55,248 bases of DNA from assembly GCF_000719975.1 (NCBI RefSeq), contig NZ_JOIJ01000021.1, forward strand, positions 1 through 55,248, written 5' to 3'. Positions 28,189 through 29,569 of this stretch are shown here, piece after piece; position 1 is the stretch's first letter, and each line of letters opens with the position of its first letter. Under the pieces are notes generated by a model that was not told the origin of the DNA, ran no database searches, and saw nothing but the letters and a program-made list of their open reading frames with translations. This stretch comes from Prauserella rugosa (GTDB taxonomy: Bacteria > Actinomycetota > Actinomycetes > Mycobacteriales > Pseudonocardiaceae). A program made the position numbers and the translations under genes.

Positions 28189-28218
28189 TTGCTGCGCCGT
28201 GCCGGACGCGCCTAGCGT
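28189..28218 (+). promoter_or_regulatory. Promoter of the pyrD leader
   Basis: TTGCTG (28189-28194) and TAGCGT (28213-28218) are 18 nt apart, a good housekeeping-sigma arrangement. A start near 28225 would give a leader of about 295 nt before pyrD that includes the 12-codon ORF and the hairpins. Confidence 0.6.
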
Positions 28219-28249
28219 GGTGGTACACGAGAAAGGAGGTGGTCCGACA

Positions 28250-28288
28250 GTGAACAGCTATAGGACTCGTGAGGTGGCTGTCCGCTAG
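28250..28288 (+). CDS. Candidate 12-residue leader peptide MNSYRTREVAVR
   Basis: A GTG-initiated ORF of 12 codons ending in TAG. Its Shine-Dalgarno region (28230-28245) reads AGAAAGGAGGTGGTCC, which pairs with about 16 nt of the 16S rRNA 3' tail with a single G-U, far longer than usual. The codons TAT, AGG, ACT, CGT and GCT are unlike the GC-ending codons of all neighbours, hinting that the nucleotide sequence rather than just the peptide is conserved. GGTGGTCCG (28238-28246) is complementary to CGGACCACC (28298-28306), and the ORF's own GGTGGctgTCCGC can pair with the same strand. A leader-peptide or structured-RNA function is inference; expression is untested. Confidence 0.55.
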   Translation: MNSYRTREVAVR

Positions 28289-28340
28289 GACGGTATGCGG
28301 ACCACCGCGTGCTGCCCGGCGAATACCAGGCAGTCACCGG

Positions 28341-28412
28341 CCCCCGACGCTCCCGAGGACCGGTCCACCACGGGCCCGGACGGCTGACGACGTCCGGGAG
28401 TCGCGTCGGGGG
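28341..28412 (+). terminator. Terminator or attenuator hairpin before pyrD
   Basis: CCCCCGACGC (28341-28350) pairs perfectly with GCGTCGGGGG (28403-28412), enclosing a second hairpin CCCGGACG (28375-28382) / CGTCCGGG (28391-28398). TTTCCCTCTTCC follows directly. The downstream tract to 28519 contains a 15-bp direct repeat (CCAGCACGCTGTCTC) near 28427-28456 and no gene. Confidence 0.65.
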
Positions 28413-28519
28413 TTTCCCTCTTCCTCCGCCAGCACGCTGTCTCTCCAGCACGCTGTCTCCCCCAGCACTGCCGCGGGCCCGCGCACGATGCCGCGCCGCA
28501 TAGGGCACCATCGACACTC

Positions 28520-29569
28520 GTGCTCTTCGATTCCTTCGTCCGCCCCGCGCTGTACCGCCTGCACGGTGACGACCCGGAACGGGTCCACGAACGCACCGTC
28601 CGCGCGCTGGGCACGCTGAGTGTGGCGCCGCGCGCCGCGCGGTCGGCCCTCCGCAGACTCACCGCCGCCGACGAGCAGGTCACGGTGTTCGGCGTGCGGT
28701 TCCCCGGCCGCGTCGGCCTGGCCGCGGGCATGGACAAGGATGGGCGGGCACTGCACGCCTGGCCCGCGCTGGGTTTCGGATTCGTGGAGATCGGCACCGT
28801 CACCCGGCACGCACAACCGGGCAATCCGCGGCCGCGCCTGTTCGCGCTCCCGGCCAGTGACGCCGTCATCAACCGGATGGGCTTCAACAACGCCGGCGCC
28901 GACGCGCTGGCCGCCCGGCTCGAGCGCCACGGCAGGCCCGAGGTGCCGCTCGGCATCAGTATCGGCAAGTCCAAGGTGACGCCGCTGGAGGACGCTGTCA
29001 CCGACTACCGCACGTCGCTGCAGGCGCTGCGCCCGTACGCCGACTACGTCGCCATCAACGTCAGTTCCCCCAACACGCCCGGCCTGCGCACGCTGCAGGA
29101 CCGCGATTCGCTGGCCGAGATCCTCGCCGCGCTGCGGGACGCGGCACCGCGCACGCCGCTGCTGGTCAAGGTCGCCCCCGACCTCACCGACGACGCACTC
29201 GGCGAGCTGTTGCAGGTGTGCGTCGACCACGGCGTCGCGGGCGTCATCGCCACGAACACGACGTTGCGCCGGGACGGGCTCGCCCCCGCCGACACGGCGA
29301 CCGCAACCGAAACGGGTGGCCTGTCCGGGCGGCCGCTGACCCGGCGCGCCCGCGAGGTGGTCCGCTTCGTGCATCGGCAGACCGGTGGTGCGCTGCCGAT
29401 CATCGGAGTGGGCGGGATCGGCGGGCCAGCCGACGCCGAGGCCATGCTCGACGCCGGAGCCGCGCTCGTGCAGGTCTACACCGCGTTCGCGCTGCACGGA
29501 CCCGGCCTCGTGCGCCGGATCAACCGCACCCTGGCCGCCGAATCGGGCCGTTGGCCGTCGGTCTTCTGA
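28520..29569 (+). CDS. pyrD: Dihydroorotate dehydrogenase (quinone), class 2
   Basis: A 349-aa flavoenzyme that oxidises dihydroorotate to orotate in pyrimidine synthesis, passing electrons to quinone at the membrane. The N-terminal helices ([19 protein letters not shown]...) are typical of class 2. [40 protein letters not shown] with the catalytic Ser of class 2, LLVKVAPDL and the FMN phosphate loop [11 protein letters not shown] are all present. No Shine-Dalgarno stands before the GTG. The only clear promoter lies about 295 nt upstream behind a leader ORF and terminator-like stem. The last 50 nt overlap the convergent gene. Confidence 0.94.

Follow-up and report, generated by a model that had tools for sequence, protein, structure and literature searches.

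What is the short element that lies ahead of pyrD in Prauserella rugosa? The initial annotation, made from the letters alone, read it as a pyrD leader with a very strong Shine-Dalgarno (SD) sequence, a 12-codon open reading frame (ORF) and switchable hairpins, and offered, as an alternative, an autonomous RNA that binds ribosomes. Below, we weigh these readings against comparative evidence; "the window" denotes the whole 55,248-nt stretch of DNA that was analyzed.

Identity and genomic setting of the element

In an Rfam covariance-model scan, window positions 28225-28421 (+) matched RF02471 (Ms_IGR-5) over model positions 1-184 with an E-value of 2.6e-19, and this was the single match to the family in the whole 5.2-Mb genome. 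The score of 92.2 bits over the full model, against a gathering score of 45 bits, makes the element a member of a known Rfam sRNA family, catalogued before and not new as such. The features discussed here are as follows.

28189-28194 (+), candidate -35 box TTGCTG, 18 nt upstream of the -10 box, read from the sequence
28213-28218 (+), TAGCGT, -10 box in the promoter of the RNA itself, position conserved in 262 copies
28225-28421 (+), Ms_IGR-5 sRNA (RF02471), whole model matched, 92.2 bits versus a gathering score of 45
28230-28245 (+), extended Shine-Dalgarno sequence AGAAAGGAGGTGGTCC, complementary to the entire 16-nt 3' tail of 16S rRNA
28250-28288 (+), 12-codon ORF, GTG to TAG, MNSYRTREVAVR, length and frame conserved
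28263-28267 (+), GGACU (codons 5-6), predicted 5' strand of the pseudoknot, from covariation and outgroup comparison
28273-28282 (+), GGUGGCUGUC (codons 8-11), predicted 5' strand of helix P3, from alignment, RNAalifold and covariation
28298-28306 (+), CGGACCACC, the switch strand of the initial annotation, confined to this genus and a few relatives
28318-28327 (+), GGCGAAUACC, conserved motif ahead of the P3 3' strand, unpaired in the proposed fold, from the alignment consensus
28329-28338 (+), GGCAGUCACC, predicted 3' strand of helix P3, from alignment, RNAalifold and covariation
28341-28412 (+), predicted P4 stem (28341-28350 with 28403-28412) enclosing hairpin P5, from RNAalifold and covariation
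28362-28366 (+), GGUCC in the P5 loop, predicted 3' strand of the pseudoknot, from covariation and outgroup comparison
28520-29569 (+), pyrD (dihydroorotate dehydrogenase), a neighbor only, outside the RNA, adjacent at 19 of 279 loci

As far as the accessible text of the sources goes, a transcription unit of Ms_IGR-5 with mapped and linked ends was reported in Streptomyces avermitilis and filed as an sRNA, not as cis-regulatory (PMC8780764), RNA-seq support was reported in S. lividans (PMC8079986), and a homologue carries ribosome reads in M. abscessus and M. smegmatis in a study that itself warns that ribonucleoproteins can co-isolate with ribosomes (PMC4974804); the name also occurs in PMC10454040. 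The term Ms_IGR is absent from the main text of PMC5521070, on peptides coded by sRNAs. In the literature searched, with subscription papers, the original report and supplements outside its scope, we found no function for Ms_IGR-5 and no description of the ORF, of the match to the 16S tail or of the pseudoknot. The initial annotation had left open whether the element was already described: as a family it is listed, while these three parts of it were not found in that literature.

Ms_IGR-5 is widespread in actinobacteria. At an E-value of ≤0.001, RF02471 was matched in 131 of 197 genomes of the class sample (130 over the cut-off; one match per genome, except two in assembly G085), in 30 of 41 genomes of relatives and in 31 of 149 genomes of the phylum sample, with 21 of the latter outside the class and 5 of those 21 over the cut-off; none of the 14 control genomes had a match. 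An exact degenerate pattern of the element's 5' half was present in 120 of the 197 class-sample genomes, and a control pattern had no match among those listed in the same scan. Among the pattern matches listed are the genera Streptomyces, Mycobacterium, Nocardia, Micromonospora, Cellulomonas and Nocardioides. Conservation beyond close relatives, which had been proposed as a check on the element, was observed. Three families (f27, f38 and f36) had no exact-pattern copy in 15, 8 and 7 sampled genomes, respectively, and Ms_IGR-5 may have been lost or have diverged in such lineages. One divergent copy (L217) lies on contig VFLI01000053.1, labelled as a Spirochaetia MAG, by misbinning or transfer, and the two loci of G085 (L030 and L121) come from an assembly with a reported contamination of 5% that could be a mixed bin.

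For comparison, 279 loci were reduced to 262 distinct copies by removing 14 duplicates, two loci in the wrong register (L019 and L059) and one that lacks the anchor (L159); the below-cut-off class-sample element of G022 was left out of the set. The Rfam model contributed 152 copies and the sequence pattern 110 (among the pattern matches listed), L217 being one of the 110, and counts over 261 leave out L242. Because the search pattern itself imposed GGAGGTGRTYC, GGAC and GTGAGGTGRCTG, with GAGGTG likewise given by construction, these letters are uninformative for the 110 copies that it found. In all copies, GGAGGTG and GAGGTG were also the anchors of the comparison, yet both are present in 131 of 131 class-sample loci. 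Twenty copies from outside the class, with L300 left out, formed the outgroup.

Within the flanks examined, pyrD adjoins the element at only 19 of the 279 loci, namely, in the window, in 6 of 6 congeners, in 3 others of its family and at 9 named loci (among the pattern matches listed) of Amycolatopsis, Prauserella, Actinokineospora and Actinophytocola, all of which we take to be genera of the family Pseudonocardiaceae. In the class sample, pyrD was near 1 of 131 loci within the flanks examined, and that locus is the window itself. The distance from the stem to pyrD, measured at 17 of the 19 loci, ranges from 40 to 1353 nt, and a CA(G/C)CAT box stands directly ahead of the pyrD GTG in 14 of the 17. 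A crude gene caller placed the next gene on the opposite strand at 171 of the 261 copies (171 of the 233 next genes called) and on the same strand at 62, and it called none at 28; the corresponding counts in the model-found set were 108, 26 and 18 of 152. The 47 downstream proteins, from 56 hand-picked loci, fell into 37 Pfam families, the commonest being THAP4_heme-bd (7), PNPOx_N (6), PNP_phzG_C (6) and DHO_dh (4), and the 40 upstream proteins scanned, of 43 listed, fell into 31. Since pyrD is rarely adjacent, the next gene is mostly on the opposite strand and the downstream families are diverse, we conclude that the element is a stand-alone RNA and not a pyrD leader, and the proposal that ribosomes on the mini-ORF control readthrough into pyrD finds no support.

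The 40 nt upstream of GGAGGTG contain 262 TANNNT boxes in 262 copies, every one starting 20 to 24 nt before GGAGGTG, which bears out the -10 box of the promoter first annotated (28213-28218). This box at a nearly fixed distance and, in the accessible text of PMC8780764, the linked transcript of S. avermitilis both agree with a stand-alone RNA. The terminator-like stem annotated at 28341-28412 is present but belongs to the RNA's own conserved 3' domain, and the P4 stem likely doubles as the RNA's terminator.

The Shine-Dalgarno sequence, the 16S rRNA tail and the ORF

The 16-nt SD match with one G-U pair was confirmed: AGAAAGGAGGTGGTCC (28230-28245) pairs with the 16S tail GGATCACCTCCTTTCT at 16 of 16 positions, one of them a G-U. 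At up to one mismatch, RAAAGGAGGTGRTYC occurs in the 5.2-Mb genome only at this site. The tail string GGATCACCTCCTTTCT is absent from the window's own draft assembly and present in 9 of 21 genomes searched, among them the congener G200, from which the 16S partner used in the pairing counts was taken. Of 261 copies, 237 pair with GGATCACCTCCTTTCT at 16 positions, 23 at 15 and one at 14, where 7 of the 16 positions (GGAGGTG) are the anchor of the comparison; the nine non-anchor positions all pair in 141 of 152 model-found copies, and eight of them pair in the other 11. Each of the 20 outgroup copies pairs over the full 16 positions, with GG(A/G)GGTG as the anchor.

The variation at single positions follows the tail closely. 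Its penultimate C faces a G in all 152 model-found copies and in 109 of the 110 found by pattern; at the positions facing the three inner Us, A and G interchange, with single exceptions; opposite the tail G is a C or T, with one exception; and opposite the last U, purines occur in 144 of 152 model-found copies. One position beyond the other end of the tail is much freer (G in 149, A in 89, T in 13 and C in 10 of 261). Judged by this comparison, the free SD positions vary as the wobble rules for pairing with the 16S tail predict.

The matched RNA starts at 28225, 10 nt before GGAGGTG (28235), and the spacing between GGAGGTG and the start codon (28241-28250 in the window) is 8 to 10 nt in 258 of 261 copies and 8 to 11 nt in 260. 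This spacing seems longer than is usual between an SD sequence and a start codon, and together with the weak start codons it may make initiation slow.

The ORF has 12 codons in 251 of the 262 copies, 13 in 8, 14 in 1 and 11 in 1; the remaining copy (L157) has no in-frame ATG, GTG or TTG, and 12 codons ahead of its stop there is an ATC in frame. In model-found copies only, the length is 12 codons in 143 of 152 and 13 in 8, with no start in 1, and the triplet 12 codons ahead of the stop is TTG in 73, ATG in 49, GTG in 22, others in 8 and CTG in none. The stop codon itself varies (TAG in 234, TGA in 14 and TAA in 13 of 261 copies). GGAGGTG and the GAGGTG of the ORF are 36 to 38 nt apart in 250 of 262 copies, and because the length change sits between the SD sequence and the start, the reading frame is kept. 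In all 20 outgroup copies, the frame stays open up to a stop codon and spans 13 to 15 codons, with an ATG, GTG or TTG start in 11 and only CTG, ATT, ATC or ACG in 9, and the C-terminal half of their ORF is similar.

Codon usage and codon variation were also examined. The ORF had been said to use codons foreign to this genome, which holds for TAT, ACT, GCT and AGG (0.7, 1.3, 4.4 and 6.2 per 1000 in the 38 crudely called genes of the window) but not for CGT, which at 10.4 per 1000 is not very rare. Among the ORFs with an ATG, GTG or TTG start (252 of 262 copies, 200 distinct), codons 2 to 4 are hypervariable, with synonymous changes in 35 of 121, somewhat above the 18% expected, and codon 7 is most variable at its first base (R/C/S). 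All 131 class-sample loci contain GAGGTG (codons 8-9, Glu-Val); within the ORF of the window (28271-28276), this hexamer is itself SD-like. We read the mini-ORF as real, and as probably selected for translation of a defined length and under constraint at the RNA level rather than for its peptide.

Pairing between the ORF and the 3' domain

Filters on P3 and P4 pairing, length and similarity were passed by 131 of 261 elements, 101 of which were aligned. On this 101-copy alignment, RNAalifold predicted P3 (codons 8-11 with GGCAGTCACC), P4 and, more weakly, a hairpin P1 at the SD flank. Taken jointly, P3, P4, P5 and the pseudoknot were paired in 93.9% of cells, a figure to which P3 and P4 contribute a fraction biased upward because the rows were preselected on these two helices, and 23 of 30 pairs had changed on both sides. 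None of 500 shuffles was as high on any of five measures, and sliding the strands by 1 to 3 columns cut the pairing of the joint fold to 30 to 45%. Covariation, which had also been named as a check, was found for the joint fold.

The pseudoknot would join GGACN of the ORF (codons 5-6) to N'GUCC in the P5 loop. With the loops read by eye, the seven copies with GGAT in the ORF have ATCC in the loop in five and GTCC, where a wobble is possible, in two; one GAAC copy has GTTC, and three GGGC copies retain GTCC, again with a wobble. At the fifth pair, 58.5% of 253 copies (8 of 261 left out) are Watson-Crick, compared with 30.5% in shuffles and 39.1% in the highest of 2000, in a test of a kind that relatedness inflates; the wobble base of codon 6 tracks the P5 loop. 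For the pseudoknot alone, 0 of 500 shuffles reached its paired cells, double-changed cells or covariation score, and shuffles were as high in 82 of 500 on changed pairs and in 99 of 500 on pair types. An outgroup scan that required GTC in the P5 loop gave a complementary run of 4 to 8 nt in 20 of 20 copies (for example, UCGACC:GGUCGA and CGGGACC:GGUCCCG), with a mean score above all 5000 partner permutations among sequences that are related; in L290, the best run is in another register, and GGAC and GUCC are present as well. The outgroup scan for P3 by duplex energy gave noisy output.

Outside the comparison set, L159 is the sole relative that lacks GAGGTG. It has GAGGAG instead, which changes Val to Glu, and its frame is 12 or 13 codons long. 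The 3' strand of L159, GCAGAACCTCC, is changed too and, read by eye, still complements the altered ORF strand, so that P3 can form. In this copy (∼1505-1600, reverse complement), almost nothing lies between the stop codon and the P3 3' strand. The comparisons indicate that codons of the ORF form the fold, codons 5-6 in the pseudoknot and codons 8-11 in P3, and that both covary.

These partners differ from those first proposed. CGGACCACC had been named as a switch strand that pairs either with the SD flank or with the ORF, but just 10 of 261 copies, 7 from this genus, carry GGACCACC between the stop codon and the 3' strand of P3, and the ORF strand has its conserved partner instead in GGCAGTCACC (28329-28338). 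The motif GGCGAATnCC (28318-28327), upstream of the P3 3' strand, is well conserved and has no partner in the fold.

Two further helices were considered and rejected. P1, in which GUCC of the SD flank pairs with GGAC of the ORF, can form in 97.8% of cells but does not clearly covary, with 48 of 500 shuffles as high, and the pairing with 16S rRNA explains its letters. The structure that cmscan prints for RF02471, which Rfam types as an sRNA gene, pairs the SD sequence with ORF bases, and its structure line, unlike the fold found here, has neither P3 nor the pseudoknot between ORF and loop. That SD helix (model positions 14-19 with 55-60) has possible pairs in 92.9% of cells, with 149 of 500 shuffles as high, so no covariation above shuffles, a result that bears on the drawn structure and not on membership in RF02471, which is based on score.

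Possible functions and relation to known systems

The best explanation we can offer is that the element is a free-standing sRNA and a miniature mRNA in one transcript, encoded by a single genomic copy. Of the two proposals made at the outset, that of an autonomous, ribosome-binding sRNA fits the evidence best. Beyond this, we see about an even chance that the RNA is gated by translation, the transit of the ribosome opening the ORF strands, freeing the 3' domain and coupling the state of the RNA to translation. A 30S subunit with an intact 16S tail would load at the 5' end, and the ribosome crossing the ORF would pull the pseudoknot and P3 apart. The freed GGCAGUCACC and the P5 loop (GUCC) would then become open to pairing with other RNA, or to decay, and the state of the RNA would thereby report whether translation runs. 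Comparison supports the tail pairing, the length and frame of the ORF and its pairing with the 3' domain, and from these we infer the refolding by the ribosome; the initial idea that translation chooses between structures is retained in this form, with other pairing partners.

Known RNAs offer partial parallels. Dual-function sRNAs such as SgrS and RNAIII carry a short ORF and a structured RNA on one transcript. Ms_IGR-5 resembles them in having a conserved, translatable short ORF in a structured RNA and differs from them in that its ORF is near-universal in the copies compared and nearly fixed in length, with codons that would themselves be the pairing strands. tmRNA is likewise a structured RNA with a short ORF read by ribosomes; unlike tmRNA, Ms_IGR-5 has its own SD sequence and start codon, and an ARAGORN search of the window turned up neither a tmRNA nor a tRNA gene, so that the tRNA-like domain with tag ORF that characterizes tmRNA was not seen there.

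Could the RNA instead be a decoy whose 16-bp pairing holds 30S subunits, for example, in stationary phase, with the ORF merely letting the ribosome load and leave? The strongly conserved tail pairing and the RNA start just 10 nt before GGAGGTG would suit this role, which we nonetheless consider unlikely, as it leaves the constant ORF length and stop and the pairing of codons with the 3' domain unexplained, and a gene present once in the genome would have to be expressed at a very high level if its RNA were to titrate ribosomes. Less credence still goes to a sensor of 16S 3'-end maturation or integrity, in which only 30S subunits with an untrimmed tail would use the start site and cleavage or processing of the tail would thus be monitored. 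The pairing does extend to the penultimate C of the tail, with its G in every model-found copy, the 9 of 20 outgroup copies that have no ATG, GTG or TTG would rely on SD pairing, and the accessible text of PMC12274833 describes a toxin that removes the anti-SD sequence, but tail complementarity alone could serve plain binding.

An mRNA for a micropeptide, whose 12-residue product MxxxRTREVAxR would be what matters, ranks lower again and seems improbable to us. The kept frame, the Glu-Val of all class-sample loci, the similar C-terminal half in the outgroup and the slight excess of synonymous changes in codons 2 to 4 are what one could cite for it, but those same codons are hypervariable, codon 7 changes most often at its first base, a pattern at odds with selection for a peptide, the wobble base of codon 6 tracks the P5 loop, and L159, as read by eye, alters Val to Glu while its compensated 3' strand retains P3. 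The attenuation of pyrD can be dismissed as highly improbable: pyrD does lie downstream in the same orientation, both in the window and in the six congeners sampled, but it does so at few loci elsewhere, at widely varying distances and mostly behind a box of its own, and the usual next gene is on the opposite strand and of diverse family. The conserved same-strand position upstream of pyrD that would mark a leader-peptide attenuator was thus not found (19 of 279 loci; 171 of 233 next genes on the opposite strand). As for a terminator and an antiterminator that exclude each other under control of the ORF, P3 and the pseudoknot involve the ORF, P4 pairs without it, and the CGGACCACC strand is local. 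With the actinobacterial attenuators trpL, leuL and ilvL, as covered in the accessible text of PMC8079986, Ms_IGR-5 shares a short ORF beside alternative helices; unlike them, it has no regulatory codon run and no conserved downstream gene, and it has a strong SD sequence where several of the attenuator leaders are described there as leaderless.

What the comparison adds to the catalogue entry is a conserved ORF whose codons hold the fold together and an SD sequence that matches the complete 16S tail. A translated ORF would also give a concrete reason for the ribosome reads reported on the Ms_IGR-5 homologue, as far as the accessible text of PMC4974804 describes them. Taking translational gating further, Ms_IGR-5 might be a phylum-wide gauge of both the integrity and the activity of ribosomes, in which only a 30S subunit with a complete tail could start the ORF and the passage of that ribosome, not the peptide, would unlock a pseudoknotted 3' domain that acts on other RNAs. 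We regard this extension as speculative and rather unlikely; were it true, translation would be the input, the shape of the RNA the output and the ORF a lock sized by ribosome geometry. If translation does reshape Ms_IGR-5, it would be a deeply conserved RNA that senses the state of the ribosome directly, in the phylum to which Streptomyces and the mycobacteria belong.
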